In this document: piece by piece, positions 5,388 to 42,764 of the stretch | Layout: each line of letters opens with the position of its first letter | How positions within the stretch are numbered: the first letter of the stretch is position 1 | From: Phytoactinopolyspora halotolerans | Lineage (GTDB): Bacteria; Actinomycetota; Actinomycetes; Jiangellales; Jiangellaceae | DNA: 43,593 bases | Direction of reading: 5' to 3' | NCBI RefSeq assembly: GCF_010550675.1 | Contig: NZ_JAAGOA010000037.1 | Coordinates: 1 to 43,593, forward strand | Made by a program: the position numbers and the translations under genes | Notes under the pieces: model-generated | Databases searched by the model: none | What the model saw: only the letters and a program-made list of their open reading frames with translations | What the model was told of the DNA's origin: nothing

Positions 5388-5397
5388 GGAGCAGCCG

Positions 5398-6861
5398 ATG
5401 GACAAGCCTCTGGGGATGTTCGATCGTGAACACGAGTGGTCCGCGCTTACTCGGTTCGCATCCGACGAGCAGCCGGGCGCCACGCTCGGTGTGGTATCCG
5501 GGCGACGTCGACAGGGCAAGACGTTCCTCCTGGACGCGCTGTGCCGGACCATGGACGGCTTCTACTTCGGTGCTGTCGAGGAGACCGAGGCGGAATCGCT
5601 GCGACGAATCGGCCACGCCCTGACTGACTTCCTCGACCTGCCTGTGACGTTCCGGCCGGATAGTTGGTATGAGGTCATAGACACGTTGCTGACCGTCGGG
5701 CGGGAACGACCGGTGCCGGTGGTGATTGACGAGTTCCCGTACCTAGTCAAGGCCAGTCCGGCATTGCCGTCGATCATTCAGCAAGCGTATGGCCCGTTAC
5801 GCGATGAGCGGGTTGAGTCGCGATCACGATTGCTTCTTTGCGGTTCAGCATTGTCGGTCATGGGCAAGTTGTTGTCCGGCAACGCGCCCCTGCGGGGCCG
5901 GGCAAGCTTGGAGCTTGTTGTTCGGACACTTGACCATCGGCTTGCGGCAGAGTTCTGGGGTATTGACGATCACCGCCTCGCCGTTCAGGTGAACGCGATC
6001 CTGGGAGGCACCCCGGCTTATCGTCGTGAACTTGCTCGAAACGATGTTCCTGCCGGGCAAGACGATTTCGATGATTGGGTTGTGCGGACGGTTCTCAGCA
6101 CGGACAGCCCGCTCTTTCGCGAAGCCCGGTATCTGTTGGCCGAGGAGCCCGACCTTCGGGACAGCGCCCTTTACCATGCGGTCTTGGCTGCCGTGGCCGG
6201 AGGCAATGCCAATCGTGGGGGAATTGCCGATTACCTCGAGCGCAAATCGTCGGACTTGGCGCACTCACTCGACGTGTTAGAGGGTGCTGGGCTGCTGGTC
6301 AGAGAGCAGGATGCGTTCCGCGCCAAGCGGAGCACGTACAGAATCACCGAGCCGTTGATCACGTTCTACCACGCCGTGATGCGCCCGGCATGGGATCAGC
6401 TTGAGCGGCCGGGAAACGCCGAACGCGTATGGCGCAATAGCCAGCGCAGGTTCGTCAGCAACGTACTCGGACCCCGATTCGAGCAGATCTGCCGTGAGTG
6501 GGCGCTGTTCCATGCCGATGACGATGTTCTCGGCGGCCTTTCCGCACAAGTCGGCCATGGCGTGGTCTCTGACCCCACACAGCGAACGACGCACGAGATC
6601 GACGTGGTCGTTACAGGAACGGCTGACGGGAACAAGCCGCCTCTTCTCGCGATCGGCGAAGTGCAGTGGGGCGAGGTGATGGGGATCGAGCACCTCGATC
6701 GGCTTCGGCACGTTGCGTCGCTGTTGGCCAAGAACGACCGGTACGACGCGTCGCAGCTCCGGATTCTCTGCTTTAGCGCTGCCGGATTCTCGCCGGAGCT
6801 TCACGAGGCGGAAGGTGCCGGACAAGTTGTACTGGTTGGTTTGGACAAGCTATACGGCTGA
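5398..6861 (+). CDS. AAA-family ATPase with DUF234 C-terminal domain
   Basis: A 487-residue ATPase of the archaeal-ATPase type. Walker A GRRRQGKT is at residues 35-42 and Walker B PVPVVIDEF at 106-113. A winged-helix segment (about 260-310) and the C-terminal DUF234 nuclease-like domain follow. In that domain the acidic residue D402 and E421 are present, but the usual lysine is glutamine (E-V-Q423), so nuclease activity is doubtful. No cellular role is established for the family. ATG 5398 is favoured because GGGAG lies 6 bases upstream; ATG 5416 is an alternative. An open frame extends further upstream, but it runs through the palindrome and antisense to sbcD. The gene stands alone, pointing away from sbcD. 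Confidence 0.85.
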   Translation: MDKPLGMFDREHEWSALTRFASDEQPGATLGVVSGRRRQGKTFLLDALCRTMDGFYFGAVEETEAESLRRIGHALTDFLDLPVTFRPDSWYEVIDTLLTVGRERPVPVVIDEFPYLVKASPALPSIIQQAYGPLRDERVESRSRLLLCGSALSVMGKLLSGNAPLRGRASLELVVRTLDHRLAAEFWGIDDHRLAVQVNAILGGTPAYRRELARNDVPAGQDDFDDWVVRTVLSTDSPLFREARYLLAEEPDLRDSALYHAVLAAVAGGNANRGGIADYLERKSSDLAHSLDVLEGAGLLVREQDAFRAKRSTYRITEPLITFYHAVMRPAWDQLERPGNAERVWRNSQRRFVSNVLGPRFEQICREWALFHADDDVLGGLSAQVGHGVVSDPTQRTTHEIDVVVTGTADGNKPPLLAIGEVQWGEVMGIEHLDRLRHVASLLAKNDRYDASQLRILCFSAAGFSPELHEAEGAGQVVLVGLDKLYG

Positions 6862-23242: not shown

Positions 23243-24508
23243 CTAGGACCAGAGGCGGTCGACCGGCATGACGTGGATGCGGTCGTCGTAGGTGTAAGAG
23301 CGCTCGCCGAGATAGAATGCGACACCAGCACAGAATGCGTCTCCGATCACGTCCCTGAGCTTGCGAAGCGGACGTAGGTGTTCGCCGGGGACTCGTCCTG
23401 ATGCCTTGACTTCGAATGCGATGACTGCGCCGTCGTCCCGTTCGATGATGAGGTCGACTTCGTCTTCGTCTCGGGTACGCCAATGACCGAGGCCGGTGAT
23501 CCCGTCGAGCCAGGATGCTTGGCGTTGCAGCTCGCCGACCACGAATGTCTCGAGCAAGTGCCCGAACTCTGTCATTGAGGTTGGGTCTCGGCGTGCCAGC
23601 TTTTCGGGTGTCAGGCGTAGGAGGCGGGCGGCGACGCCGGAATCGATGACGTGTAGCTTCGGCGATGCTGCAGTGCGTGATGTCAGGGTTTTGTCCCAAG
23701 CAGGGAGCCGTTGGATTAGGAAGACCCGTTCGAGTAGTCGCGTATAGCCGTCGGCCGTGCGATCGTCAAGGCCGACGTCATTGGCGGCTCGGGTGATGTT
23801 CAGGATCTGGGCCGTCTGTCCCGCGAGGCGGCTGAGCAGGCGTGGGAGTACCGCGGCTTGCTGGATCCGCGCCAGCTCGTGTACGTCGCGTTCGAGTGTG
23901 AGGCGGATGTAGTCATCGAACCAACGATTGCGGGCGGCAGGCGACCTGCGCGCTAAGGCGGGCGGGAAGCCGCCTTGGACGATCCGCTGGATGTAGTCGT
24001 CTCTTGACGTTGTAGACACGGGGGCCGCGACCGTGTTCGTGGGATCCTTGAACAGGTCATCGATGAGATCTTCAGACATTCCTGTGATCTCGCCCTGAGA
24101 AAGTGGATAGATCGCGATCCGATGTAGGCGTCCGGTCAGGGCTTGGGCGGCAGCAGGGAGGGCATCGTGACGAGTGGATCCGGTTAAGAGGAACCTGCCA
24201 GGGCGCCCGTCGCGATTTAGTTCGGCTTTGATGGCGTCTAAAACCAGCGGAGCCTTCTGGTACTCGTCGACACACACGGGTGCAGGCTCGCCCATGAACG
24301 TAGCGGGATCGATGCTCACCGCCTCCTGTGTCGCGGGATCATCGAGATCGAGGACACCGACCCCGTGCGCATCGGCCAGACCTCTCAGCAATGTTGACTT
24401 GCCTACGGAGCGTGGTCCTTCGAGCAGGATGACGGGTTCGTCCTCCATGCGCGACTGAACCACGGCAACTAGGCGGCGAGGGATGACGCTGGTGGACTGC
24501 TCGATCAT
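23243..24508 (-). CDS. AAA_14/DUF4143 ATPase
   Basis: A 421-residue ATPase. The AAA_14 domain has Walker A GPRSVGKST (31-39) and Walker B PVCVDEYQ (77-84), followed by a sensor-like FLLTGSTRHDALPA. The DUF4143 C-terminal domain contains a nuclease-like core EVDLIIERD ... AFEVKASG, with D352, E366 and K368 in a PD-(D/E)xK arrangement. Family function is not established. ATG 24508 is 21 bases from a striking array of four 23-base-period repeats, which probably regulates it. It is a single gene between the APH-like kinase and the damaged trypsin gene. Confidence 0.88.
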   Translation of the reverse strand: MIEQSTSVIPRRLVAVVQSRMEDEPVILLEGPRSVGKSTLLRGLADAHGVGVLDLDDPATQEAVSIDPATFMGEPAPVCVDEYQKAPLVLDAIKAELNRDGRPGRFLLTGSTRHDALPAAAQALTGRLHRIAIYPLSQGEITGMSEDLIDDLFKDPTNTVAAPVSTTSRDDYIQRIVQGGFPPALARRSPAARNRWFDDYIRLTLERDVHELARIQQAAVLPRLLSRLAGQTAQILNITRAANDVGLDDRTADGYTRLLERVFLIQRLPAWDKTLTSRTAASPKLHVIDSGVAARLLRLTPEKLARRDPTSMTEFGHLLETFVVGELQRQASWLDGITGLGHWRTRDEDEVDLIIERDDGAVIAFEVKASGRVPGEHLRPLRKLRDVIGDAFCAGVAFYLGERSYTYDDRIHVMPVDRLWS

Positions 24509-26103: not shown

Positions 26104-26541
26104 AGCCGTCCCCCTCTAACGACCTCTACTCAAGGTGGCACAGAAGGGGCGTATCGGATAGATCTTGCTGCAATGTCCGGGATCGACGTGGATGCCGGAT
26201 TCCGAGCGGGGAACGCCTCAATCGCGCCGCTAAACTACCTAATCTGCCAACGGATTAGGTAGTTTAGCGAGATCTTTGGTTAGTTTCCGCACTACACGCG
26301 GGTCTCTCGATGTCCGTCTGCGGTAGCCCACATACGAGCGAGCCGGGGGCCCGTCCGGGTCGCATCCCGAACCGGAGCTCCAGGTAGGTGCGGGGCAGGT
26401 TGGCTGTCCGTGGTCCGCTATCGTCATGGCGGTGAACGCGGCATCCGGGTGCGCCAATGCGGTGCTGGTTGCCGGAGTGGGCACGATCGATGACCTGAGG
26501 TGGTCGGCCGCGTCGAGCCAATGGGTGAAGGAGACCGCTGG
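26104..26541. other. Intergenic region between trypsin gene and mraY
   Basis: This 438-base stretch between divergent genes holds one notable element, the inverted repeat at 26228-26269. I see no gene of convincing composition; frames on the minus strand around 26240-26520 give arginine-rich peptides without family similarity. Confidence 0.45.
26228..26269. repeat. Inverted repeat with perfect 17-base arms
   Basis: Arms 26228-26244 and 26253-26269 are exactly complementary around an 8-base loop. The sequence is AT-rich within GC-rich DNA and has no T-run. It resembles in style, not sequence, the palindrome at 5347-5387, but no ATPase gene adjoins it. Confidence 0.7.
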
Positions 26542-27603
26542 GTGACTGCAGTACTGATCGCGGCAGCCGTGGGTCTGGTGGTCTCGATTCTCGGAACTCG
26601 GGTAGCGATCCAGGTGCTCGTCCGGCGTGGCTTCGGCCAGCCGATCCGGGACGAACTCTCGGCGAGTCATCAGGTCAAGCGTGGCACGCCCACGATGGGT
26701 GGGTTGGTGATCGTCCTGGCGGCGGTGATCGGCTACGCCGCGGCCCACCTGGTCCGCTGGTACGAGCCGTCGGTCTCGGCGTTGCTCGTGCTCGGCCTGA
26801 TGGCCGGGCTGGGTTTGGTCGGCTTCCTCGACGACTACATCAAGATCTTCAAACAGCGGAGTCTGGGCCTGCGCAGCCGGGCGAAGATGGCCGGACAGGT
26901 GGCCGTAGCGCTCGCATTCGCGCTGCTCGCGATCCGGTTCGAGAACGACGAGTCGTTGACCCCGGCGTCGCAGGCCGTATCGTTCTTGCGCGACACGCCG
27001 ATCGTTCTGCCAGCCGCGCTGTTCGTGGTGTGGGCGCTGCTGATCATCTCCGGTACCTCGAACGCGGTGAATCTGACCGACGGGCTGGACGGCCTGGCCA
27101 CCGGTGTGTCGGTCATGGTGTTCGGCGCCTACACGCTCATCGGGATCTGGCAGTTCAACCAGAGCTGCGACACCGTGCCGGTACCGGCATGCTACGACGT
27201 GCGCGACCCGTACGACCTGGCCGTCGTGGCAGCTGCGCTGGTGGGCGCATGCTTCGGATTCCTGTGGTGGAACGCACCACCTGCCAAGATCATCATGGGC
27301 GACACCGGGGCACTCGGGCTCGGCGGAGCCATGGCCGGGCTGGCCATCACAACCCGCACCGAGCTGCTGTTGGTCATTCTCGGCGGGCTGTTCGCGGCCG
27401 TCACGATGTCGGTGGTACTGCAGGTCGGCTACTTCAAGCTGACCGGCGGACGACGCCTGTTCCGGATGACGCCACTCCATCACCATTTCGAGCTCAAGGG
27501 CTGGAGCGAGGTCACGATCGTCGTCCGCTTCTGGATCGTGGCCGGCATCTGCGTCGCCACGGGGCTCGGCATCTTCTATGCGCAGTGGGTTGTCGGCACG
27601 TGA
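26542..27603 (+). CDS. mraY: Phospho-N-acetylmuramoyl-pentapeptide-transferase
   Basis: A 353-residue integral membrane enzyme that transfers phospho-MurNAc-pentapeptide from UDP to undecaprenyl phosphate (lipid I synthesis). All family motifs are present: KRGTPTMGG, the aspartate pair [33 protein letters not shown], and the cytoplasmic [14 protein letters not shown]. About ten membrane segments are seen. GTG 26542 has GAAGGAG 8 bases upstream; ATG 26521 lacks one. No other cell-wall gene (murF, murD, ftsW) is adjacent, so this is outside a dcw cluster, either a displaced gene or a second copy. Confidence 0.92.
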
Positions 27604-28048: not shown

Positions 28049-29359
28049 TCAGGCGTCGGCCAGGATCGGGATGCGTGCGCCGCGGTAGCGACCGTGCATG
28101 CGGGCCCGGCGTCGCGTCGGAGCGGCTTTCGCGCCCCGGGTCCCCCAGCCGGACGAGCGCAGCTTGAACAACGCGTGGATCATCGCTGGGCGCAGAACCA
28201 GCAAGTGGATCAGGACGAGCGACGGAGTTCCGAGCAGCCAGATCGACCACCGCTGGACGGCAGTCATCTGCGGACGTCCCACCGCGTACTTGAGATTGAG
28301 CATCCAGCACGCCACGGTCCAGTACGCGAGGAACTGCCATGCCAGCGGGTGGCCGAGCAGGGGCGCCACGACGAGCGTCATCATGAGCGAAACGGGCACG
28401 ATGACCGACAGAACGGCGTAGAACGCACTCCACAACATCGGGACTGTGGGCAGGTGCGCAATCTCCCAGAGCGTGTAGCGCCAGTGCGACGAAGACCAGC
28501 GGACCCGTTGCCGATACAGCTGCTTTATCCGGGTCGGCATGTCGGTGTGGACGACGGCGTCGGCCACTGAGACGACATTCCCGCGCAACATCGCGTAGTG
28601 CGTCAGGCGGCGGTCGTCGCCGTGGCTCTGCGCGGCCGAGACGTAGTCATCCAGATTGTCCAGCACGACCCCGGCGCGGTACAACGACAACGCGCCCGAG
28701 CACGTCGTGATGCTGCCCAGCCGGGACCGCGCGGCGCGGTAGGTCAGGCAGATTGAGGTGATTTCCAGGTCGATCAGCCGTGCTAGCCAGCTCGACCGGT
28801 TCCGGGTCAGCGGGAGCCCCGTGGCGGCCTGCACGTCGGAATCGGACATGGCTTGCAAGAGGCGCTGCACGGCGTAGCGATCAACGGTGCAATCAGAGTC
28901 GACCGTCAGGACGAAATCGGCACCTGTATCCGTGCGCAACGCGTGAGCCTGGGCCTTGCGCTTGCCACCGTTGGGCTGGCGGTACCAGAACACCCGTGGA
29001 TGCTCGAACTCCGGGATCGGGTGGTGGGAGCCATCGTCGACGACGTGGATCTCGTCGGGAGGCCGCGTGCCCGACAGCAGAGACCGGATCGTTTCGTGCA
29101 ACGCATCCGGGTCCTCGTTGAACGCGGGGATGACGGCGACAACCTTGCCGTCGGCCATGGGCCGGTGACTGTAGCGCCGACCAGGCACGGCCACCGAGAA
29201 GGTAATCACCAGCAGCACGATCGTGGGGAATACGGTGTTGAGGTTGAACGACGGCTCGCTGTGAAACCGGTAGAACCCGATCCACATAGTGACGGCGAGC
29301 GCCGCAACGACGCCCGCCGCCACTAGCGTGCGCTGGCCGTCAGCCGCGTGTCGAGCCAC
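28049..29359 (-). CDS. Hyaluronan-synthase-like family 2 glycosyltransferase
   Basis: A 436-residue membrane processive glycosyltransferase. Two membrane segments precede the GT2 domain. The catalytic motifs are in order: VDDGSHH (UDP binding), VDSDCTVD (DxD), HGDDRRLTHYAML (the GDDR acceptor motif), and QRVRW (Q-x-x-R-W). Four or so membrane helices follow. This layout matches hyaluronan/chitin synthase-type enzymes; the polymer made is unknown. GTG 29359 is chosen because AGGAAG lies 4 bases upstream; TTG 29380 lacks a ribosome site. It overlaps by 20 bases the second of two microprotein genes and is probably co-translated with them. Confidence 0.85.
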   Translation of the reverse strand: MARHAADGQRTLVAAGVVAALAVTMWIGFYRFHSEPSFNLNTVFPTIVLLVITFSVAVPGRRYSHRPMADGKVVAVIPAFNEDPDALHETIRSLLSGTRPPDEIHVVDDGSHHPIPEFEHPRVFWYRQPNGGKRKAQAHALRTDTGADFVLTVDSDCTVDRYAVQRLLQAMSDSDVQAATGLPLTRNRSSWLARLIDLEITSICLTYRAARSRLGSITTCSGALSLYRAGVVLDNLDDYVSAAQSHGDDRRLTHYAMLRGNVVSVADAVVHTDMPTRIKQLYRQRVRWSSSHWRYTLWEIAHLPTVPMLWSAFYAVLSVIVPVSLMMTLVVAPLLGHPLAWQFLAYWTVACWMLNLKYAVGRPQMTAVQRWSIWLLGTPSLVLIHLLVLRPAMIHALFKLRSSGWGTRGAKAAPTRRRARMHGRYRGARIPILADA

Positions 29360-29450
29360 ACTGCTTCCTGGTGGCCGCAAGGAACACGAACAGCCCGGTG
29401 AGCATGGCCGCGCACGCCACAGCCGTGATCACTGTCGGTAGGCCGACCAT
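29340..29450 (-). CDS. Single-helix microprotein, second tandem copy
   Basis: A 36-residue ORF. Its core GLPTVITAVACAAMLTGLF is one membrane helix and matches the upstream 54-residue microprotein (GLPTVITIAVAFMLTGLF), followed by a basic tail (ATRKQ / VTRKQ). The conserved pair suggests tandem duplication and selection on the protein. It overlaps the glycosyltransferase start. A GGTGGG sits just ahead of ATG 29450. No similarity to a named family is recognised. Confidence 0.55.
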   Translation of the reverse strand: MVGLPTVITAVACAAMLTGLFVFLAATRKQCGSTRG

Positions 29451-29461
29451 GTGCCCACCGA

Positions 29462-29626
29462 CTAGCTGCGTGTCTGGGCACGCTGCTTGCGGGTGACAAG
29501 CCGGTACAGGAACAGACCGGTCAGCATGAATGCGACCGCGATGGTGATGACGGTCGGAAGGCCGATGGCGTGCCCGCCGAGCAGCAAGCCGCCGGCGCCG
29601 GTGGCGGCCAGGCCGTCGTCGTACAT
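29462..29626 (-). CDS. Single-helix microprotein, first tandem copy
   Basis: A 54-residue ORF with the strong ribosome site GGAGGAG two bases before ATG 29626. The N-terminal half MYDDGLAATGAGGLLLGGHA is Gly/Ala-rich; one membrane helix (about 23-42) and a basic C-terminus (RLVTRKQRAQTRS) follow. The layout, a short motif, a helix and positive charges, resembles a sortase-sorting tail without a passenger, but a true LPxTG is absent. It heads an operon with its paralogue and the synthase-like glycosyltransferase. A role as a small synthase partner is inferred. Confidence 0.65.
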   Translation of the reverse strand: MYDDGLAATGAGGLLLGGHAIGLPTVITIAVAFMLTGLFLYRLVTRKQRAQTRS

Positions 29627-29694
29627 ATCTCCTCCATCGGGGGATGGTTGGAATGGGAGGGATCGCGACCCCCTCGCGCGACCCCTGGAAGACT

Positions 29695-29774
29695 CTAGAC
29701 GATTTTCATCTAGATGAGAACAGTCTAGACATATATCACATAGACGAAGTTGGGCTAGACGGTTTTCTGCTGTC
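29695..29774. promoter_or_regulatory. Five direct repeats with exact 15-base period, divergent promoter region
   Basis: TAGAC (TAGAT in the second) begins at 29696, 29711, 29726, 29741 and 29756, exactly 15 bases apart, usually preceded by C. The stretch is AT-rich and lies between the microprotein/glycosyltransferase operon (minus) and the XRE gene (plus). If translated in the XRE frame, it would use the rare CTA and ATA codons at every repeat, so I read it as DNA-level conservation: a multi-site operator, probably for the XRE regulator. Confidence 0.7.
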
Positions 29775-29784
29775 GTATCCTTGG

Positions 29785-30024
29785 GTGGTCGATCGACAGC
29801 GTCCCGAGTATGAACGGCTGCGCACCGTCCTGCGCGAGCTGCGGCGCGAGGCCGGGTTGAACCAGACCGAGCTGGCCGAACGGTTGCGTGTGCGGCAGGA
29901 ATGGGTCAGCCGCTACGAGGTCGGGGAGCGTCGGCTCGATGTCATCGAGCTGGTGGACGTCGCCAATGCGCTTGGCGTCACGCTCGACGACATCCTGGAG
30001 AGGGCCAGCATACGTCACGGCTGA
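29785..30024 (+). CDS. XRE-family helix-turn-helix regulator
   Basis: A 79-residue Cro/C1-type regulator. The HTH reads LNQTELAERLRVRQEWVSRYEVGERRLDVIELVDVANALGV, a complete five-helix XRE domain with almost nothing else. The frame is open back to 29644, but that part runs through the 15-base repeat array with atypical codons. GTG 29785, directly behind a TATCCT -10-like box (29776-29781), is therefore preferred and may be leaderless. Probable autoregulator and controller of the divergent glycosyltransferase operon. Its 3' end overlaps the convergent gene by 10 bases. Confidence 0.75.
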   Translation: MVDRQRPEYERLRTVLRELRREAGLNQTELAERLRVRQEWVSRYEVGERRLDVIELVDVANALGVTLDDILERASIRHG

Positions 30025-30517: not shown

Positions 30518-32281
30518 TTAACCGGTTCCATGCACGGGAGATTGCTCTGACGACGGTGGACCGGTCGCGGGGACAGCGACGCAGCGCGGTACGTCATGAG
30601 GCGCGTGCGCTGTCGCAAACAGGTAGCCGCCCGATATGCGGCGACTGAGTGCGGTCGACGCGAGGGTTACAGTCGTCGAGGCAACTGCACTAGCATCTGC
30701 TGCCGAGCCGTGGAATGTCGGCACTGAGCAGCCGATCGTTGGGGTCAGTGACGGGTGGTCGTCCGGGTTCCAGAAGGCCAGGTAGGGTCGGAGTGATCTA
30801 TCGGTGGCGGCTGCGTCGTGGAGAGCCCGGTCGATGCCGTTAGTCGTCACTCCAGGCTCGCCCGTCGTGACGGTTAAGATTCCTAAGGACGCTGTTTCGT
30901 TGTCAGTCGCCACTTGCACAACAGGTGTCCGGAGGCCTCCCTCTGCTTGACTCTGATCGAGTGCGGCAGAGACCGCCGTGTTTACAGTGCAGTCGACTAT
31001 GACGTCTGCACTCTTGGTGCCTTCTTGGAGTGATGTTTGCGCGAAACTCTGTACAGGCGTCACGTTCGCCCGCGAAGAGATTGCTCGTAGGCGGTCGGCG
31101 AGCGCATCGACCTTGGGTCGGCCCACGTCGAGTTCCGTGAAGTTCTGACGCACGAGCAGTCCGCTGGTCACGTAGCTCGGGTCTCGCAGGGTTATCGATT
31201 CGACACCGGCTCGCACGAGGTGTTCTGCTATCCACGAGCCAAGGGCTCCGCATCCCCAAAGCTCCACGCTCCTTGCTGCGAACCAACTCACGGGACGAAC
31301 GTGATCGCGGCGAGTGGACACGTTCGGGCGGACGTCGTCGATGTACGTCCATTCAACGCTGGGCTCGTGGTCGGCGGGAGGTGTATCGGATCTGTGTCGT
31401 TGCCGCGCGCTTTCGACGGCCTTGGCGACGGCGGGCTGGGGAAGGCGCCAGCCAATGAGGTGGAACCGCGCCTCACCGGTGAGATGTCGGTTCGGTACCG
31501 CCATGATGACGTGTAGGTACTGATCGCGTGTGAGTGACCGTGCTGTCTTCGAGACCACATTGAAGAACTGCTTGCGTTGATTCCGGGAATCTTGCGCACG
31601 AATGGTTGCGGCGAGATCAGAGAGGTAGTGCCCGCCTCCACGCGGCATGGTGTCTGAGAGGACAACCAAGATGCCGGGAAAGGTATCACTTGGCCGTTGG
31701 AGGCCAGGACGTTCCCACGCGATGACGTCGAGGCGATGGTCGCTGCGTTGGCGCATGGTGAGCTTTGAGATTCGGAAGCCGTCGGACAGGTCAGCGAGCT
31801 GCTCTGCAACGACTACGGTCGGCGCGCCCGGAGTTCGATGGAAGACGCCCCCGACAGGGTGGAAGAGTGCGGTGGCCGCGTCGAACCTGTCGGCGATCGC
31901 GTCAGCGAACCAGTCCCACAGACGTTGTAGGTATCCACGCATCCCTCCGTGTGGATCCCACTCGGCAGCGGGGTCGAGATAGAGGCATAAGCGAGTGCCC
32001 TGAAGTACGTGTGGATAGTCGTCCCAGCGATGATGGTCGACGAGCGCTTGTGGCGGTACCCATGGGTACTCCTTGGGGATCTGGACGTACAAGCGCTCGA
32101 GCGATTCCACCGGGAGGCCACCGTCGACCTTCGCGAAGGTGTCCGTCGCTAGGTCGACGGCGACGACCAGTGCAGCATCATCTTCTATGCATTCGACGAC
32201 GGAGACTGAGTCGGGCGAGGAGAGCTGATCGAGTTCGCCGAGAGCACGAAACTGGTACTCCGTCAGGCCTGTCTCGTTCAT
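30518..32281 (-). CDS. CBASS ubiquitin-ligase-like protein, E2-E1 fusion (Cap2-like)
   Basis: A 587-residue protein with two linked domains. The N-terminal E2-like part has YVQIPKEYPWVPPQALVDHH and the candidate catalytic Cys99 in GTRLCLYLDP. The C-terminal ThiF/E1 part has the nucleotide motif WGCGALGSW (342-350), RDPSYV, the VRQNF/GRPKVDAL segment, and a candidate catalytic Cys518 in TIGCSVPTFHG. In type II CBASS, Cap2 conjugates the CD-NTase C-terminus to targets and primes it for signalling. ATG 32281 follows the CD-NTase stop by 7 bases. No JAB/Cap3 domain is fused here or encoded nearby. Confidence 0.85.
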   Translation of the reverse strand: MNETGLTEYQFRALGELDQLSSPDSVSVVECIEDDAALVVAVDLATDTFAKVDGGLPVESLERLYVQIPKEYPWVPPQALVDHHRWDDYPHVLQGTRLCLYLDPAAEWDPHGGMRGYLQRLWDWFADAIADRFDAATALFHPVGGVFHRTPGAPTVVVAEQLADLSDGFRISKLTMRQRSDHRLDVIAWERPGLQRPSDTFPGILVVLSDTMPRGGGHYLSDLAATIRAQDSRNQRKQFFNVVSKTARSLTRDQYLHVIMAVPNRHLTGEARFHLIGWRLPQPAVAKAVESARQRHRSDTPPADHEPSVEWTYIDDVRPNVSTRRDHVRPVSWFAARSVELWGCGALGSWIAEHLVRAGVESITLRDPSYVTSGLLVRQNFTELDVGRPKVDALADRLRAISSRANVTPVQSFAQTSLQEGTKSADVIVDCTVNTAVSAALDQSQAEGGLRTPVVQVATDNETASLGILTVTTGEPGVTTNGIDRALHDAAATDRSLRPYLAFWNPDDHPSLTPTIGCSVPTFHGSAADASAVASTTVTLASTALSRRISGGYLFATAHAPHDVPRCVAVPATGPPSSEQSPVHGTG

Positions 32282-32288
32282 CACGCGG

Positions 32289-33311
32289 TCATCCAGCCCG
32301 GCCCGATCGGGAACTTGCAATTCCCAACGCCGGGACGGCGGCTGCGTATGGGTTTGCAGACGTGCTGGCCTGCTTACCTACGGGCGGGTCAAACTTTTCA
32401 CCGAACAACTTTTGCCATGCGATTGCGGACTTCGAAGGGTCCGTTTGGTCATAGGCGCTGCGCATGTCGGCGGCAATCGTATGGATGCGGTCGCGGAAGT
32501 TGCGATACGTCTCGTCAGTCCACCTTTCGTGGAAGTCGGTGCCGTCGTCACTGGGGTTGGCTAGGAAAGGCCTGGTATCTCCCTGCGCTTGTAGAAATCG
32601 GTCGAGATCTTCCACGATATTCACGAGCGCGGTAGGAGTGTTGCTGTAGCGGCCCGGGGTGATCGCATTTAGCTCGGTCACCTGGAGTCCAAGGAGAGTG
32701 GTGAGAACGACCGATTTCACGCCGTTGAAGCTCCCACGTTCACGCTTGAGGTACTTCATCAGGCGCACGACCTTGCGGAACTGCTTGTTCGTGAGTTCGT
32801 CACGGCGCCTCACCCAGTTGGTGAATCCTTGGGGGTCAGTCGAACCGAGGGCGGGCTCCCATTTGTCTTCATCACGGTTGACTATCACGCGTCTTCCGCT
32901 TGGGAGTGTGATGAATGGAACGATGTCGAGGTGGCAGCCGATGCCCTCCTCAGGTGCGTATTTCAGCCAGACGCAACGGCACTTCCTTCCGTGATCCTGC
33001 TTGGAATAGGTCGAGTGGCGATGGAGCGCGTTGTATACCGCGTCGATATAGGCGGTCGGCCGCCAGTTCTCCTGGTGAGACATCGCAAGGAGGAAATCCG
33101 CATCGAAATCACCGTTGGTCGTAGGCTTGATGATCAGCTTGTGGGGCCATGAGCCCTGGGGGAACTTGCTCGTGATCATCGTGCCAATTTCCGTGTCCGC
33201 GACGAGAGCGTTGTAGACGGCGTCTACACGGCTCTCCAATTTGCCGATACGGCTCTGGTTCAGGTTGACCTCATCGTTGAGGAACGTCTTGAAGTATTCC
33301 GCGTGCTGCAT
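32289..33311 (-). CDS. CBASS CD-NTase (cyclic oligonucleotide synthase)
   Basis: A 340-residue nucleotidyltransferase of the cGAS/DncV-like group. The active site has the G-S of PQGSW (53-54), the metal aspartates D70 and D72 in GDFDADFL, and the third acidic residue, likely D129 in CHLDIVPF. A helical C-terminal lobe follows. On phage infection it is expected to make a cyclic di- or trinucleotide read by the SAVED effector. The protein ends SGRAG, and a C-terminal glycine is what Cap2 needs for conjugation. The start lies one base after the effector gene stop, so they are tightly coupled. Confidence 0.9.
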   Translation of the reverse strand: MQHAEYFKTFLNDEVNLNQSRIGKLESRVDAVYNALVADTEIGTMITSKFPQGSWPHKLIIKPTTNGDFDADFLLAMSHQENWRPTAYIDAVYNALHRHSTYSKQDHGRKCRCVWLKYAPEEGIGCHLDIVPFITLPSGRRVIVNRDEDKWEPALGSTDPQGFTNWVRRRDELTNKQFRKVVRLMKYLKRERGSFNGVKSVVLTTLLGLQVTELNAITPGRYSNTPTALVNIVEDLDRFLQAQGDTRPFLANPSDDGTDFHERWTDETYRNFRDRIHTIAADMRSAYDQTDPSKSAIAWQKLFGEKFDPPVGKQASTSANPYAAAVPALGIASSRSGRAG

Positions 33312-33312
33312 G

Positions 33313-34452
33313 TCAGTTGATCTCCAATGCTGGTTGGTATATGCCCTCGACGCGGTCGTAGAGGACGAGCTGAGGATGGATGTCGAGGGTCACCGCTCGT
33401 CCAAGCGAAATACATGCGGACAGCGGTGCTGCTCCGAGTACGTGTACGCGGCGGACGTGCTTGCGGTGGTGTTCGATATCGGCCAGGACGTCCCGGAAAG
33501 CACGTTCAGCCGACTTGAGTGAGTCCGGTGTACCGATGACGTCGTAGTGCGCAGTCGTGTCGGCCATTGGGCTGATGCGATAGGCCGTGTAGCCGGTGAG
33601 CGGTTGCGGGATCTCAGTGATGTGCACGGTTGCGGAGAGAGAAAGGACCAGCACGATGTCCTCGGAGTCGTCGCCGTTGACGGTCTCCCAAGCGAAGCGT
33701 GTGTTCAGGTTGCCGGATGGCCACGACCATCCTTCGGTGCTGCGGTGTCGCTGGTAGATGTCGACGTCGAGCTTGTCGCCGATTAGAGTGCCGAGGTATA
33801 CCAGCAGCGGCCATCGTGCCAAGCTGAACACACTGAGGTGCTGAATCGTGCCGTCCTCGACAGCGGGAGCGAACTGGCGGCGGACAAACTGGTCGATAAT
33901 CCGCCTGCAGCTCGCGTAGTAGTCGCCGTTTCCGGCGTTCGGATCTGCGACGTGGCGGAGATCGATCTCCAAGCCTGTCCGGTCGGGGCTCAACGGGAAC
34001 TTGGCGTATCGGTTCGCATGTAGCACGGTAGCAGCGGCCATGCTTCGGTCGACATGGACCTTGCTGTCGCCGATGCTGCCTTGCATTCGCAAGATCGTTG
34101 TGGAGTTGGCGGGCGGGACCGACAACAGCTGCTCAATCCTGCCCTCATGCTTGCGCTTGATCTCTCGAAGGCGCTGAACTGTTAAGACGTCGAGATTCGT
34201 AGCTATGTCAAGGTCATCGTGGCACGTGCCACATAACAACAGGAGGTTGTCCGCCTCGTCACGTTGCTCAAGCGGCAGTGGATCGTCGCCTCTCGGGGAG
34301 CGAGTGCTCGTCGAGCGTCCTACTATGTGGGCCCGCTCACCCAACGGGACCGATTTCCAGGTAACTGACGAGGTGAGGATGTCGCGGTAACAGACCGCGC
34401 AGCGACCGCCGCTCCGTACAAGGAGGAGTCTTGTTGCGTGTTCAGAGATCAT
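33313..34452 (-). CDS. HNH-SAVED effector nuclease of CBASS (Cap5-like)
   Basis: A 379-residue effector. The N-terminal HNH nuclease has zinc cysteines in GGRCAVC (18, 21) and LLLCGTCHDD (74, 77), with active-site H42 (AHIVG), N69 and H78. Residues 140-379 form the SAVED domain that binds the cyclic nucleotide and drives oligomerisation (VFSLARWPLLVYLGTLIGDK, HVLGAAPLSACISLGRAV). When activated it degrades DNA, killing the infected cell. ATG 34452 has GGAG 5 bases upstream and overlaps by 4 bases the end of a small upstream ORF. Confidence 0.9.
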   Translation of the reverse strand: MISEHATRLLLVRSGGRCAVCYRDILTSSVTWKSVPLGERAHIVGRSTSTRSPRGDDPLPLEQRDEADNLLLLCGTCHDDLDIATNLDVLTVQRLREIKRKHEGRIEQLLSVPPANSTTILRMQGSIGDSKVHVDRSMAAATVLHANRYAKFPLSPDRTGLEIDLRHVADPNAGNGDYYASCRRIIDQFVRRQFAPAVEDGTIQHLSVFSLARWPLLVYLGTLIGDKLDVDIYQRHRSTEGWSWPSGNLNTRFAWETVNGDDSEDIVLVLSLSATVHITEIPQPLTGYTAYRISPMADTTAHYDVIGTPDSLKSAERAFRDVLADIEHHRKHVRRVHVLGAAPLSACISLGRAVTLDIHPQLVLYDRVEGIYQPALEIN

Positions 34453-36799: not shown

Positions 36800-38422
36800 A
36801 TGCCGCCACGTAAGAACGGGGTCTCGTCGGGACCATCGACGATGAAGGAACTTAAGGACACACTATGGAAGGCCGCCGACCGGCTCAGGGGTTCTCTCTC
36901 GGCGAGCCAGTACAAGGATGTCATCCTTGGCTTGGTCTTCCTCAAATATGTGTCCGACGCGTACGACGAGCGGCGCGAAGCCATCCGGGCCGAGCTGGTC
37001 GCAGAAGGTATGGACGACGAGCAGATCGCAGACCTCATTGACGATCCAGAGGAATATCACGGCTACGGCGTGTTCGTCGTCCCGCCAGAGGCCCGCTGGA
37101 CCTATCTCGCCGAGAACGCGAAGGGCAAGCCGGCCGTCGACGGTGAGCGCGAGAAGAACGTCGGGCAGCTTATCGACGAGGCCATGACCGCCGTCATGAA
37201 GGCCAATCCGTCCCTCGACGGCACGCTCCCGCGTCTGTACAACAAGGACAACATCGACCAGCGCCGGCTTGGCGAGCTGCTCGACCTGTTCAATAGCGCC
37301 CGGTTCAGCCGACAGGGCGAGTACCGAGCCCGTGATCTGATGGGCGAGGTATACGAGTACTTCCTCGGAAACTTCGCCCGCGCCGAGGGCAAACGAGGCG
37401 GCGAGTTCTTCACTCCGCCGAGCGTGGTCAAGGTGATCGTCGAAGTGCTGGAGCCTAGCAACGGTAGGGTCTACGACCCGTGCTGCGGATCGGGTGGCAT
37501 GTTCGTCCAGACCGAAAAGTTCATCTACGAGCACGAGGGTGACCCGAAGAACGTCTCGATCTATGGCCAGGAATCCATCGAGGAGACTTGGCGGATGGCC
37601 AAGATGAACCTTGCCATCCACGGAATCGACCACAAGGGCTTGGGCGCCCGCTGGGGCGACACGTTCGCGCGCGATATCCATCCGGACGTTCAAATGGATT
37701 ATGTGATGGCGAACCCACCGTTCAACATCAAGCATTGGACCCGCCGCGAGGATGATCCTCGCTGGAAGTACGGCGTACCACCGGCAAACAATGCCAACTA
37801 TGCCTGGATCCAGCACATCCTGTCCAAGCTCGCGCCTGGCGGCAAAGCGGGCGTTGTCATGGCCAACGGATCGATGTCGTCAAGCTCCAACGGCGAGGGC
37901 CAGATCCGCGCCCAGATTGTTGAGGCCGACCTCGTCTCCTGCATGGTCGCGATGCCCACGCAGCTCTTCCGCAGCACTGGTATCCCGGTCTGCCTGTGGT
38001 TCTTTGCCAAGGACAAGTCCGCTGGAGCGCAAGGCTCAATCGACCGTACAGGGCAGGTCCTCTTCATCGACGCCCGCGAGATGGGCTACATGGTCGACCG
38101 CGCAGAGCGCGCTCTCAGCAACGAAGACATCATCCGTATCGGTGACATCTATCACGCCTGGCGCGGTTCGACTTCAGCGGCGAAAAAGGGAATCGAATAC
38201 GAGGATGTAGCCGGCTTCTGCAAGTCCGTATCTCTGGCTGATATCAAGGCTGCAGACTACGCCCTCACGCCGGGGCGTTACGTTGGCGCGGCTGATGTCG
38301 ATGATGACGGCGAACCCATCGACGAGAAGATCGAGCGGCTCACAAAGGAACTGCTAGAAGCCTTCGGCGAGTCAGCACGGCTGGAGGAGAACGTGCGCAA
38401 TCAGTTGGAGCGTATCTCGTGA
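36800..38422 (+). CDS. hsdM: Type I restriction-modification methyltransferase subunit
   Basis: A 540-residue N6-adenine methyltransferase. The N-terminal HsdM domain (about 15-150) includes LRGSLSASQYKDVILGLVFLKY. SAM-binding motif I is VYDPCCGSGGMF (224-235) and the catalytic motif IV is MANPPFN (303-309). It forms the M2S core with HsdS and, with HsdR, the full restriction complex. ATG 36800 lies one base after the preceding stop, and its own stop overlaps hsdS (GTGA). Normal length; it appears intact. Confidence 0.97.
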   Translation: MPPRKNGVSSGPSTMKELKDTLWKAADRLRGSLSASQYKDVILGLVFLKYVSDAYDERREAIRAELVAEGMDDEQIADLIDDPEEYHGYGVFVVPPEARWTYLAENAKGKPAVDGEREKNVGQLIDEAMTAVMKANPSLDGTLPRLYNKDNIDQRRLGELLDLFNSARFSRQGEYRARDLMGEVYEYFLGNFARAEGKRGGEFFTPPSVVKVIVEVLEPSNGRVYDPCCGSGGMFVQTEKFIYEHEGDPKNVSIYGQESIEETWRMAKMNLAIHGIDHKGLGARWGDTFARDIHPDVQMDYVMANPPFNIKHWTRREDDPRWKYGVPPANNANYAWIQHILSKLAPGGKAGVVMANGSMSSSSNGEGQIRAQIVEADLVSCMVAMPTQLFRSTGIPVCLWFFAKDKSAGAQGSIDRTGQVLFIDAREMGYMVDRAERALSNEDIIRIGDIYHAWRGSTSAAKKGIEYEDVAGFCKSVSLADIKAADYALTPGRYVGAADVDDDGEPIDEKIERLTKELLEAFGESARLEENVRNQLERIS

Positions 38423-39603
38423 GACGCTTCGAAGTCAGCAATCTGGTCGCTCAAGGCATACTGCGCGTTGAGGACGGTAACCACGGAAACGACCGCCCCC
38501 GGCCCGGCGAGTTTGTTGAGGACGGTGTGGCATTCATCCGCGCAGCAGACATGACTAGCGGCGTGGTTGACTTTGAGGGTGCCGGAAAGATCAGTACTAT
38601 GGCACGGAACCGCATTAGAAAAGGCGTCGGCGCTCCGTGCGATGTAATATTATCGCACAAAGGGACGGTCGGACGCGTTGCGGTGGCGCCTGTTGATGCC
38701 CCTGATTTTGTCTGTTCGCCGCAGACTACATTCTGGCGCAGTCTAGACCACAATAGGCTCGACCAGCGGTTCTTGCGCTATGTGCTTGAGTCGAATGACT
38801 TCCAGCAGCAACTTCAAGTGTTGGCTAACCAGACCGATATGGCTCCATACGTTAGTCTCACTGGCCAGAGGTCGATGCATATTTCAATTCCAGAGATTTG
38901 GGAGCAGCAGGCGATTGCGGAGGTGCTGGGCGCGCTCGACGACAAGATCGCCGCCAACGACCGGCTCATACTCATTGCGGATGACCTCGCACAGGCATTG
39001 GCGCGGCGGTCGTTTGGTGACTCGGATTCTCGCTTGTCTGATATTGCATTCGTTACAATGGGTTCATCTCCGCCGGGGGAGAGTTACAACGAACACGGTG
39101 AGGGCGTGCCTTTCTATCAAGGCGTCCGAGATTTCGGTGTCAGGTTCCCGAGTCGTCGAGTGTGGACGACCGCGCCTGTCCGGGAAGCTAAAGCGAATGA
39201 CACGTTGCTCAGCGTTCGAGCTCCCGTTGGCCGTACAAACCTTGCCGGCGAGGACCTGTGTGTTGGCCGCGGCCTTGCCGCTCTGCGTTCTCGTTTGGGT
39301 CACCCAATGACTCTGTACCATCAGGTCAGGGCAACCGCCTCTATATGGGCTCCCTATGAGGCAGAAGGGACAGTGTTCGGTTCCATAAATAAGAAGCAGC
39401 TCGAAGCGATTCGCGTACCGTTCGTCATCGAATCCATGGCGAACGAACTGGAAGAGATGTTGTTTGCGATCGAAGGCCGCATCTCCGCAGCCATTGCTGA
39501 AAATGGTCTGCTCGCGGCGACCCGGGACGAGCTGTTGCCGTTGCTGATGTCGGGGAAGGTACGCGTGAAGGACGCGGAGAAGGTCGTGGAGGAGGTGACG
39601 TGA
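38419..39603 (+). CDS. hsdS: Type I restriction-modification specificity subunit
   Basis: A 394-residue DNA-recognition subunit with two target-recognition domains (about 1-150 and 200-345), each followed by a conserved helix: SIPEIWEQQAIAEVLGALDDKI and VPFVIESMANELEEMLFAIE. The standard motif ATRDELLPLLMSGKVRVKDAE closes the protein. The recognised sequence cannot be predicted. Composition is AT-richer than the neighbouring genes, as expected for exchanged specificity domains. GTG 38419 overlaps the hsdM stop and its stop overlaps the hsdR start region. Confidence 0.96.
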   Translation: MRRFEVSNLVAQGILRVEDGNHGNDRPRPGEFVEDGVAFIRAADMTSGVVDFEGAGKISTMARNRIRKGVGAPCDVILSHKGTVGRVAVAPVDAPDFVCSPQTTFWRSLDHNRLDQRFLRYVLESNDFQQQLQVLANQTDMAPYVSLTGQRSMHISIPEIWEQQAIAEVLGALDDKIAANDRLILIADDLAQALARRSFGDSDSRLSDIAFVTMGSSPPGESYNEHGEGVPFYQGVRDFGVRFPSRRVWTTAPVREAKANDTLLSVRAPVGRTNLAGEDLCVGRGLAALRSRLGHPMTLYHQVRATASIWAPYEAEGTVFGSINKKQLEAIRVPFVIESMANELEEMLFAIEGRISAAIAENGLLAATRDELLPLLMSGKVRVKDAEKVVEEVT

Positions 39604-42600
39604 TGGTCAGCGAGGCCGAGTGGGAGATTATCGCCCTTGAAACGTTCGCAGAGCAGGAGTGGATGCCCACTGCCGGTGCTGAAATCGCTCCGGGAGTCGA
39701 CGGTGGTCGAACGTCCTGGGAAGATGTCGTTTTGCCCAGCCGCATGTTGCGCAAGTTGGGTGACCTCAACCCGCAGGTTCCGGTGGAGTACCTGGAGCAG
39801 GCGCTTGCGGAGATCGTTCAGCCGAAATCGCAGGACGCGATCGCGGAGAACTTCCGATTGCACCAGATCTGTGTGCATGGGTATCGGGGGATTAGCTACG
39901 TTGACTCCGACGGCATCGAGCAGAATCCGACGATTCGGTTGGTCGGCCCAGAGGTCGAGGACAATGAACTCTTGGCTGTCAACCAGGTGATTGTGCGCTC
40001 GAAGGACGCCGAGCGGCGGTTTGACATCGTGCTCTACCTCAATGGCATGCCAGTGGCGATCGTCGAGCTCAAGAAGGCCGGCTCCCAGCACGCGGACATC
40101 GCGGCCGCGCATGCTCAGCTGGACACCTATCTGCGCGAGTTCCCGATGGCGTTCCGCTTCGCCGTGATGACGGTGATCAGCGACGGCATCGTCGCGCGCT
40201 ACGGAACGCCGTTCACGCCGCTCAACCACTACTCGCCATGGAGGGTGGATGACGAGGGCAAGCCGGTGAGGCTCGGCGAGGCGGCCGGCGATGTGCATCT
40301 GGGCACCGAGCTCGAGTTCCTGATCGAGGGTGTGTTCAACCCGGAGCGGTTCCTGCAGTTGCAGCGCAACTTCACGGCGTTCGACGAGGGCGACGTCCTC
40401 AAAAAGCGGATCGCGAAGCCGCACCAGTACTTCGCCGTCACGAAGGCAGTCGGCTCAACGGTCGCGGCGGTGGAGAGCAACGGCAAGGCGGGCGTCGTCT
40501 GGCACACCCAGGGCTCGGGCAAGTCGATGGAGATGGAACTCTACGCCCACCTTGTCGCCCGTCAGCCCAAGCTGAAGAACCCGACGATCATTGTCGTGAC
40601 CGACCGCCGCGAGCTGGACGGTCAGCTCCTCGACACGTTTAAGGTGTCGACACTGTTGGGCGAGGACCCGATCGCCGTCACCACTCGCAGCCAGTTGCGC
40701 GACGAGCTGACGAACAGGACGACCGGCGGCATCTACTTCACGACTCTGCAGAAGTTCGGTCTCACCGACGAGGAGCGGCAGTCCGGCCTCGACCATCCGC
40801 TGCTGTCGAATCGGCGCAACATCATCGTCGTCGTCGACGAAGCCCACCGCAGCCACTACGACGATCTTGACGGTTACGCCCGGCACCTCAAGGATGCGCT
40901 GCCCAACGCTGCGCTGATCGCGTTTACCGGCACGCCGATTTCGGAGTCGGACCGTAACACCCGCGAGGTGTTCGGTGATTACGTCGACATCTACGACCTC
41001 ACCAGGGCTGTGGACGATGGTGCGACCGTCGAGGTGCACTTCGAGCCGCGGCTGATCCAGGTCGGGCTGACGTCCGACGTTAGCGAGGATGATCTCGATA
41101 AGGCGGCCGACGAAGCCACGACGGGGCTCGACGACGTCGAGAGGACGCGAATCGAGAAGTCGGTCGCGGTGATCAACGCGGTCTACGGCGCGCCGGCCCG
41201 GCTTCAAGCACTGGCAGCAGACATCCTCGAGCATTGGGACACCCGCTCGGAGGAGATGCGCAAGTTCATCGGTACGCCCGGCAAGGCATTCATCGTGGGC
41301 GCCACGCGGGAGATCTGTGCCCGGCTGTACGAGGAGATCATCAAGCTTCGGCCGGATTGGCACAACGATGCGGTGGACAAGGGCGTCGTCAAGGTCGTGT
41401 ACTCCGGGTCGGCCCAGGACGAGATGCCCGTTGCCAAGCACGTGCGGCGGAGCTCGCAGATCAAAGCGATCCAGACCCGGCTCAGGGACGCGGACGACCC
41501 GTTGCAGATCGTGATCGTCAAAGACATGATGCTGACGGGCTTCGACGCTCCGCCACTGCACACGCTGTACTTGGACCGTCCGCTCAAGGGCGCGCTGCTC
41601 ATGCAGACTCTGGCGCGGGTCAACCGGACCTTCGAGGGAAAGCCGAGCGGCTTGCTTGTCGCGTATGCGCCGCTGGCGGAGAACCTAAACCAGGCCCTTG
41701 CCGAGTACACCGACACTGACCGTGCCACGAAACCGGTCGGGAAGAACATCGATGAGGCTGTCGAGCTAACGAGAGGTCTGATCTCATCGCTGGATGACCT
41801 GTGCTCAGGGTATCCGTGGCGGAAACAGCTTGACGGTGGTCCAAAGTCGTGGATCAAGGCAGCCACAGGCTTGACCAACTATCTCCGCTCGCCAGACACA
41901 CCGGGCAATCAGCCGGCCGAAGGGGAGGAGACGCTAGCCGACCGGTTCCGCAAGTTGGCTAACCAGCTTTCTCGGGCCTGGGCTCTGTGCGCTGGCAGCG
42001 GAGAGTTGCACGATATGCGATCCGAAGCGCGATTCTACGAAGAAGTCCGGGTCTGGATGGGCAAGTTCGATGCCCAGGAACGTCAATCACAGGGCCGCCC
42101 CGTCCCAGAAGAGATCCAGCGGATGCTCTCGGCGTTGGTAGCAACGTCGACCGCATCCGGCGAGATCGTGGACATCTATGAGGCGGCCGGGCTAACGAAG
42201 CCGTCACTCTCGGATCTGGGACCGGAATTCCATGTCAAGGCACAACAAGCGTCCAACCCGCACCTGGCGATAGAGGCGTTGCGGGATCTGCTCACCGAAG
42301 AGGCAGGCAAGGTGACGCGCCACAACCTTGTCCGGCAGCGAGCGTTCTCTGAACGGATCAAGGAGTTGATGAAGAAGTACACGAACCAGCAGCTCACCTC
42401 GGCCGAGGTCATCGCTGAACTGATTGAGTTCGCCAAAGAGGTGGCCGCCGAGGGTAAGCGCGGCGCGCGCTTCGCACCCCCTCTATCGGAAGATGAACTC
42501 GCCTTCTACGACGCCGTGAGCACCAACGAGTCGGCAGTTGAGCTCCAGGGTGAGGACGTACTGGCCCAGATCGCTCGCGAACTGGTGGCAGTGATGCGGC

Positions 42601-42764
42601 GGGACGTGAAGACTGACTGGACGGTGCGGGACGATGTTCGAGCCAAGCTGCGCTCTTCAATCAAGCGGCTCTTGGTCAAGCACAAGTACCCGCCCGACAA
42701 GCAGCCGGAGGCGATCAAGCTTGTCATCGAGCAGATGGAGAGTATGGCCCCCCGCTACGCCTGA
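39603..42764 (+). CDS. hsdR: Type I restriction endonuclease subunit
   Basis: A 1053-residue motor/nuclease. The N-terminal PD-(D/E)xK nuclease has D141 and E155-L-K157 (FDIVLYLNG ... AIVELKKA). The superfamily 2 helicase motor has Walker A GSGKS (304-308), DEAH (412-415), TGTP (442-445) and later motifs near ILVKDMMLTGFDAPPL-like sequence (VIVKDMMLTGFDAPPLHTLY). A helical C-terminal domain contacts the methylase. It translocates and cuts unmodified DNA. ATG 39603 (in TGATG overlap with hsdS) has GGAGG upstream. All motifs are intact. Confidence 0.97.
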   Translation: MVSEAEWEIIALETFAEQEWMPTAGAEIAPGVDGGRTSWEDVVLPSRMLRKLGDLNPQVPVEYLEQALAEIVQPKSQDAIAENFRLHQICVHGYRGISYVDSDGIEQNPTIRLVGPEVEDNELLAVNQVIVRSKDAERRFDIVLYLNGMPVAIVELKKAGSQHADIAAAHAQLDTYLREFPMAFRFAVMTVISDGIVARYGTPFTPLNHYSPWRVDDEGKPVRLGEAAGDVHLGTELEFLIEGVFNPERFLQLQRNFTAFDEGDVLKKRIAKPHQYFAVTKAVGSTVAAVESNGKAGVVWHTQGSGKSMEMELYAHLVARQPKLKNPTIIVVTDRRELDGQLLDTFKVSTLLGEDPIAVTTRSQLRDELTNRTTGGIYFTTLQKFGLTDEERQSGLDHPLLSNRRNIIVVVDEAHRSHYDDLDGYARHLKDALPNAALIAFTGTPISESDRNTREVFGDYVDIYDLTRAVDDGATVEVHFEPRLIQVGLTSDVSEDDLDKAADEATTGLDDVERTRIEKSVAVINAVYGAPARLQALAADILEHWDTRSEEMRKFIGTPGKAFIVGATREICARLYEEIIKLRPDWHNDAVDKGVVKVVYSGSAQDEMPVAKHVRRSSQIKAIQTRLRDADDPLQIVIVKDMMLTGFDAPPLHTLYLDRPLKGALLMQTLARVNRTFEGKPSGLLVAYAPLAENLNQALAEYTDTDRATKPVGKNIDEAVELTRGLISSLDDLCSGYPWRKQLDGGPKSWIKAATGLTNYLRSPDTPGNQPAEGEETLADRFRKLANQLSRAWALCAGSGELHDMRSEARFYEEVRVWMGKFDAQERQSQGRPVPEEIQRMLSALVATSTASGEIVDIYEAAGLTKPSLSDLGPEFHVKAQQASNPHLAIEALRDLLTEEAGKVTRHNLVRQRAFSERIKELMKKYTNQQLTSAEVIAELIEFAKEVAAEGKRGARFAPPLSEDELAFYDAVSTNESAVELQGEDVLAQIARELVAVMRRDVKTDWTVRDDVRAKLRSSIKRLLVKHKYPPDKQPEAIKLVIEQMESMAPRYA

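Follow-up and report, generated by a model that had tools for sequence, protein, structure and literature searches.

A two-gene module of Phytoactinopolyspora halotolerans probably joins a nearly cargo-less class E sortase substrate, the microprotein ORF1, to a processive GT2 polysaccharide synthase. The module lies in a stretch of 43,593 nucleotides (contig NZ_JAAGOA010000037.1), called the window in the following, where ORF1, its partial copy ORF2 and the GT2 gene are encoded one after another on the minus strand. The region contains these features:

29462..29626, minus strand: ORF1, a 54-aa microprotein with the full sequence MYDDGLAATGAGGLLLGGHAIGLPTVITIAVAFMLTGLFLYRLVTRKQRAQTRS
29597..29611, minus strand: LAATG codons of ORF1, a class E sortase-type (LAXTG) motif; no other signal of this kind was found in the window
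29629..29635, minus strand: GGAGGAG ribosome site, separated by 2 bases from the ATG of ORF1
29340..29450, minus strand: ORF2 (36 aa), a partial copy that lacks the LAxTG tip and overlaps the synthase start with its end
29458..29585, minus strand: tandem DNA duplication, first copy (local alignment)
29337..29466, minus strand: tandem DNA duplication, second copy (local alignment)
28049..29359, minus strand: GT2 synthase, hyaluronan-synthase/NodC-like; the start is taken as GTG at 29359, and a longer frame begins with TTG at 29380
29644..30024, plus strand: divergent XRE-type regulator (PF01381), with 17 bases between its start codon and that of ORF1
29694..29760, plus strand: three repeats of the TCTAGA/CTAGAC type, within the XRE frame close to its 5' end and adjacent to the start of ORF1

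ORF1 has the layout MYDDG-LAATG-AGGLLLGGHAIG-LPTVITIAVAFMLTGLFLY-RLVTRKQRAQTRS, i.e., an LAXTG pentapeptide, a hydrophobic helix and a basic tail, and its C-terminal end reads RLVTRKQR. The LAATG motif occupies residues 6–10 with merely five residues ahead of it, which is too short to hold a cleavable signal peptide. The hydrophobic segment has a hydropathy of 2.12 and the basic tail, YRLVTRKQRAQTRS, contains R and K as adjacent residues. The class E sorting signal is defined by LAXTG, a hydrophobic segment and a basic cluster (PMC5148588), and the succession of hydrophobic segment and basic C-terminal cluster is likewise given as a criterion in PMC13251363. Both the pentapeptide and the segment with its basic C-terminal cluster are present in ORF1, and the further attribute of a class E sortase substrate, a class E sortase in the same genome, is found as well: the window genome encodes five sortases over the Pfam cut-off, two of which are class E by NCBIfam with 208 and 206 bits (cut-off 160). 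LAATG, helix and basic tail together are a predicted class E sortase sorting signal, which the preliminary description had not recognized. In profile searches neither ORF1 nor ORF2 matched a Pfam or NCBIfam family, and for the counterpart of ORF1 in Phytoactinopolyspora halophila, too, no such model, those for sorting signals included, gave a match. ORF1, which adjoins the synthase gene, is conserved and evolves under purifying selection: compared with the P. halophila counterpart its dN/dS is 0.195, the differences are distributed over the codon positions as 11/8/29, and 0/2,000 random substitution sets were as conservative.

The synthase contains the Pfam domains PF00535/PF13641, and all features by which processive GT2 enzymes are recognized, i.e., the GT2 domain, DDGS, DSD, GDD, Q..RW and helices, are found in it; the DDGS, DSD, GDD and Q..RW columns are invariant among 13 aligned relatives. 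Its best NCBIfam match is the NodC model with 149.9 bits, which does not reach the cut-off of 550, and the PgaC model gives 81.7 bits, likewise under its cut-off of 422.3. At E <= 1e-5 five PDB sequences were matched, all of them hyaluronan synthases (best E 2.7e-14). An AlphaFold2 model built from 11 sequences (mean pLDDT 73.6, pTM 0.75) has the hyaluronan synthases of Chlorella virus and Xenopus as best fold matches, with TM-scores of 0.51–0.70 by query length among the first 13 matches listed. A scan of viral contigs revealed no relatives of the synthase.

To what extent the pair is conserved was studied with synthase relatives collected from actinobacterial genomes and plasmids, of which those with at least 80 bits to the window GT constitute 126 distinct GT loci. 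In a first scan of ORFs, 38 loci showed an L[AP]xTG microprotein, 16 a one-helix ORF with basic tail and 72 neither of these, and 0/3,580 other ORFs of these loci passed the same test. A frame scan allowing other starts raised the number with an upstream L[AP]xTG microprotein to 47/126, 46 with LAxTG and one (L004) with LPTTG, and it returned 0 in 1,054,868 strand-bases elsewhere in the same loci. The MAFFT alignment put the LAxTG motifs of two microprotein groups out of register, and later counts were made by the motif itself. A FastTree phylogeny of the 126 GTs splits into 78 and 48, with support 1.0 for the 78; this clade of 78 holds 46 of the 47 motif microproteins and the other 48 hold one (L007). 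A further 22 clade loci encode a one-helix ORF, namely 21 motif-less microproteins (16 from the first ORF scan, five added by eye) and L111, also added by eye, which carries LAQTG; the one-helix label of the first scan was given to 0/48 loci outside the clade. No microprotein was found at 10/78 clade loci (L003, L109, L034, L036, L037, L038, L039, L040, L063, and L065). L034, L036, L038, and L040 are Nocardioides/Kineococcus-type members, L109 lies at a contig edge, and at L003 the synthase is truncated on the 5' side. The latter locus, in genome G011, appears as a decayed module, in which only the last 275 synthase residues match, no microprotein was found and a 32-residue piece of an XRE homologue lies nearby.

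The preliminary description had proposed to search upstream of related synthases for similar short ORFs, and such a one-helix ORF is present in 68/78 clade loci (six by eye). Its view of the short ORF as a conserved partner gene coupled to the synthase is borne out insofar as the ORF is a conserved and apparently translationally coupled neighbour: in several relatives the microprotein stop overlaps a candidate synthase start, with spacings of -13 at L004, -19 at L029, -10 at L092/L093, and -3 at L030–L033. It is plausible that ORF1 acts as a subunit or anchor of the synthase, as had been suggested. The expectation that such genes are missed by annotation holds in part, since two plasmid records contain such ORFs as hypothetical proteins (WP_020269611.1 and WP_019328316.1). 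In a phylum-wide draw of 296 genomes the synthase occurs in four besides the window genome. One of them (L218, genome G1114) belongs to a different class of the phylum, and upstream of its related GT2 lies a microprotein-like frame with GTG start, MYDDVLG.., that contains LATTG; no microprotein was found at the other three synthase loci of this draw, which are outside the window's class.

ORF2 is the partial copy of a tandem duplication. The unit common to both ORFs comprises 91 identical among 131 aligned DNA columns. The alignment of the two copies scores 98; about 1,000 random pieces of the window scored no more than 46. Since the duplicated unit begins at the LLGGH codons, ORF2 lacks the ORF1 N-terminus MYDDGLAATG. 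The earlier observations on this tandem hold: both ORFs lie on the minus strand at the places claimed (ORF1 29462–29626, ORF2 29340–29450), they have GLPTVIT..MLTGLF..TRKQ in common, the tandem unit being confirmed at the DNA level, the first has a strong ribosome site (GGAGGAG 2 bases before the ATG), and the second overlaps the glycosyltransferase start, by 20 bases with the GTG start at 29359 or by 41 with TTG at 29380. That the two ORFs in tandem form the functional unit is not supported, as ORF2 is a partial copy found only at the window locus (L001): a scan of the 126 GT loci found no second copy at any other, and L002, a candidate for a second two-copy locus, was ruled out because of a spurious overlapping frame. 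The dN/dS between ORF1 and ORF2 is 0.57. P. halophila has one copy, the 3' end of which overlaps the candidate synthase start with a spacing of -19 as for ORF2, and this places ORF2 at the ancestral junction with ORF1 as the full-length copy. ORF2 probably serves mainly to keep translation coupled via this ancestral overlap with the synthase start; it may be decaying, or be retained for coupling.

The presence of the motif is associated with the presence of a class E sortase, called present if NF033747 reaches at least 160 bits. Such a sortase was found in 43/44 genomes with the motif vs 10/20 with a motif-less microprotein (Fisher 1.1e-5). These 64 genomes are the 66 tested minus two that have a class E sortase, G011, where the synthase is truncated and no microprotein was found, and G002, where the GT was found but no microprotein; L111 (LAQTG) was counted with the motif, L113 (IASTG) as motif-less, and G447, at 157 bits, as without class E sortase. 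Among genomes at least 90% complete the association is 41/42 vs 10/16 (p 0.001), and it weakens when contaminated motif-less genomes are also dropped (41/42 vs 10/14, p 0.012); within the single family f17 it is 15/16 vs 8/18 (p 0.003; by genus state p 0.05). It is not significant for independent pairs on the synthase tree, of which there are too few for a decision: on average 3.2 of 6–7 agree and 0.0 disagree (median p 0.25). There are exceptions in both directions, as G624 has LAVTG and no class E sortase over the cut-off, and ten genomes have the sortase together with a motif-less microprotein.

Two further sequence features set the microproteins apart from ordinary sortase substrates, as far as can be judged from 29 non-redundant microproteins (under 80% identity) and 20 ordinary LAxTG/LPxTG proteins as controls, taken from the loci of the NF058583 scan of 296 genomes described below: an N-terminal tyrosine and a spaced RxxxR tail. 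Tyrosine precedes the motif in 24/29 microproteins vs 1/20 controls, counted in the latter within the 15 residues preceding the motif (Fisher 4e-8). The spaced R-x-x-x-R/K tail occurs in 24/29 motif microproteins, in 16/22 of the other list (the 21 motif-less proteins plus L111, which has a long tail and was missed by the scan), and in 0/20 controls, for which the cut in this strict count differed slightly from that of the microproteins; with a looser RxxxR/K pattern the numbers are 27/29, 21/22, and 10/20. Within the first ten residues, tyrosine is found in 24/29 microproteins with the motif vs 4/10 motif-less ones of sortase-less genomes (p 0.017), and in 5/11 motif-less microproteins of genomes with a class E sortase. 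The charge pattern favours an N-out/C-in orientation in 29/29 of the non-redundant microproteins.

NF058583 of NCBIfam (LAXTG_small_WW, 'LAXTG motif-containing small protein', a model of 54 positions) did not exceed its cut-off of 65 in any of the 296 genomes (0/296), and it matched neither ORF1 nor ORF2 at E <= 1 nor the P. halophila microprotein at E <= 5. Weak matches of 10.6 to 40.8 bits were obtained for 9/11 of the relatives' microproteins scanned, and six places of the window genome match under the cut-off, one of which reads LADTG-helix-RRRR. Among the matches listed are 13 in short frames, four of them at a contig end (L186, L187, L191, and L193). Of the remaining nine, seven (L182–L185, L188–L190) are small free-standing proteins that carry MY at the N-terminus or close to it, and all seven adjoin a GT2-like gene, six by Pfam and L182 by a weak tblastn match; no GT2 was found beside either L192 (87 aa) or L194 (102 aa, with a signal-peptide-like start). 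The combination of tiny LAxTG proteins with GT2 thus appears as a theme wider than the clade of 78. At L183 and L184, both of the window's family, an exosortase-like gene lies between the LAxTG microprotein and the GT2; the exosortase-like proteins match TIGR04178 with 34.5 and 39.5 bits (cut-off 23), and the L183 GT2 gives 276 bits with NF053846 (XrtP-associated GT), for which the cut-off of 520 is not reached. TIGR01167 (LPXTG_anchor) was over its cut-off in 2/8 relatives in one scan and in 1/3 in another.

Besides the synthase, the neighbours of the module vary between loci. Around 22 modules (20 fetched neighbourhoods plus L114 and L115) the recurring gene clusters, synthase apart, are a dehydrogenase at 7, an FG-GAP-repeat-type gene at 4, and two others at 3 each. 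In 6/22 neighbourhoods (L114, L195, and L197–L200, from genomes of family f19 and a Streptomyces plasmid) the microprotein is directly preceded by a UDP-glucose-dehydrogenase-type gene. The dehydrogenase gene ends 348–514 bases ahead of the synthase match, and the microprotein lies in the interval; the domain was confirmed by Pfam at one of the six. This neighbour would fit a uronic-acid polymer at those six loci. The window is not among them, and no gene of this type was seen beside its module; in P. halophila a member of the dehydrogenase cluster lies ~6 kb downstream of the module. FG-GAP-repeat-type genes recur near four of the six dehydrogenase loci. An XRE homologue with 49% identity is divergent from the P. 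halophila module as well, and the XRE-type gene is a possible regulator of the module. The idea that the CTAGAC repeats are an operator is weak, because a search of the 380 bases ahead of the P. halophila module revealed none of the TCTAGA/CTAGAC type.

Several further genes were observed around the modules. In the window, positions 30518–34452 next to the module encode a CBASS-type E1–E2 protein, an oligonucleotide cyclase and an HNH-SAVED endonuclease (PADLOC), and positions 36800–42764 the methyltransferase, specificity and restriction subunits of a type I restriction-modification system. An MraY-type phospho-N-acetylmuramoyl-pentapeptide-transferase gene (26500–27603; NCBIfam 307.7 vs cut-off 192.05) is convergent with the synthase, and proteins at 4807–6861 and 23243–24508 match the PADLOC candidate families PDC-S27 and PDC-S01. 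By eye, an ORF beside the G015 module (L196 6267–7274) resembles a tyrosine recombinase, and ORFs upstream of the P. halophila module (L204 2699–5964) resemble what we take to be a terpene cyclase and an encapsulin-like shell protein.

How the two gene products might act together can be outlined as follows. ORF1 would be made together with the synthase and would sit beside it in an N-out/C-in orientation, held by its helix and RxxxR tail; a synthase-binding role of these two parts is suggested because both are retained when the motif is absent. A class E sortase encoded elsewhere in the window genome is presumed to act on ORF1. It would cut between T9 and G10, with the peptide MYDDGLAATGAGG as predicted SrtE cleavage substrate, and would pass the nonapeptide MYDDGLAAT to lipid II or a wall peptide, a transfer that is proposed because of the motif and its association with the sortase. 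Helix and tail would remain with the synthase after cleavage, and polymer output would be tied to the wall-anchoring machinery. Several observations speak against this outline: ORF1 is too short for a cleavable signal peptide, neither it nor its P. halophila counterpart is detected by sorting-signal models, the association with the sortase loses significance in the paired comparison and has the exceptions given above, and microproteins were not found at ten clade loci and at three of the four loci outside the window's class, nor a GT2 beside L192 and L194. A more far-reaching version, which we regard as speculative and rather improbable, holds that the exposed tyrosine tip is, or becomes, the site to which the polymer from the adjacent synthase is attached, and that the class E sortase welds tip and glycan to peptidoglycan; if true, this would constitute a protein-sorting route fixing a synthase-made polysaccharide to the wall.

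Other explanations have to be weighed against this module of sortase substrate and synthase. ORF1 might serve the synthase simply as an accessory subunit with one helix, similar to BcsF or IcaD, with an LAxTG that is not used by a sortase. The 21 clade synthases whose microprotein has one helix and a basic tail but no L[AP]xTG speak for it (nine of them come from genomes without a class E sortase over the cut-off, and one more, from G447, has a sortase just under it), as do the spaced RxxxR kept in 16/22 and the candidate stop/start overlaps with the synthase. Such a subunit leaves unexplained that the motif occurs in 46/78 clade loci and nowhere else in the loci, that it is associated with the class E sortase, and that tyrosine is commoner where the motif is present than in sortase-less, motif-less cases (24/29 vs 4/10, p 0.017), and we consider it unlikely. 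The complete sorting signal and the variation of the non-synthase neighbours between loci would also suit a stand-alone wall peptide made by sortase, merely co-regulated with the synthase and linked to the polymer neither physically nor chemically. The helix and RxxxR tail, however, persist where the motif is absent, and the pair stays together across divergent synthases and changing neighbourhoods, so that this explanation appears quite unlikely to us.

Small membrane toxins are typically small, with a single helix and a basic tail, and ORF2 looks partial, which could indicate that ORF1 is such a toxin, what is left of a larger wall protein, or an ORF that arose by chance. Against this stand purifying selection, the ribosome site of its own, and the same place upstream of 46 related synthases with none elsewhere in the loci, which make these explanations highly improbable; the chance-ORF and toxin readings were set aside on the purifying selection and the confinement of the motif to the synthase-upstream position. 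The preferred reading remains a sortase substrate paired with the synthase.

Compared with known systems, several parts of this module are familiar. BcsF, IcaD, and PgaD are small subunits of GT2 synthases and, like ORF1, small membrane partners of these enzymes; to our knowledge, they are without a sortase motif. In general, little is understood of how Gram-positive walls retain the polymers that single-chain synthases make. The window synthase has the GT2 motifs and the fold in common with hyaluronan synthase, NodC, and PgaC; in contrast to NodC and PgaC, it scores under the model cut-offs and has a microprotein partner. The loci L183/L184 resemble exosortase-associated GT2 systems (XrtP-associated GT, NF053846), and no exosortase was found among the window neighbours scanned (MraY-type, XRE, E1–E2). 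NF058583 comprises LAXTG small proteins like ORF1, and seven stand-alone hits of this model likewise lie beside GT2-like genes. Sorting signals of class E are already known, as are HAS-like synthases and, in NCBIfam, a narrow family of LAXTG small proteins. In the open PMC literature searched we found neither a pairing, throughout a clade, of HAS-like GT2 synthases with LAxTG microproteins almost devoid of cargo, nor the tyrosine tip, the RxxxR tail and the lack of the motif from most genomes without the sortase. Substrates of class E sortases such as the chaplins ChpA–C and others have LAXTG, a hydrophobic segment and a basic cluster as in ORF1 (PMC5148588). Unlike these, ORF1 is without a surface domain and without a cleavable signal peptide and has five residues before the motif, and the tyrosine tip (1/20) and the spaced RxxxR tail (0/20) are rare or absent in ordinary sortase substrates. 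What distinguishes the module is a nearly cargo-less sorting signal linked to a HAS-like enzyme across many actinobacterial genera, which suggests a direct link between polymer synthesis and sortase/wall anchoring in soil actinobacteria.
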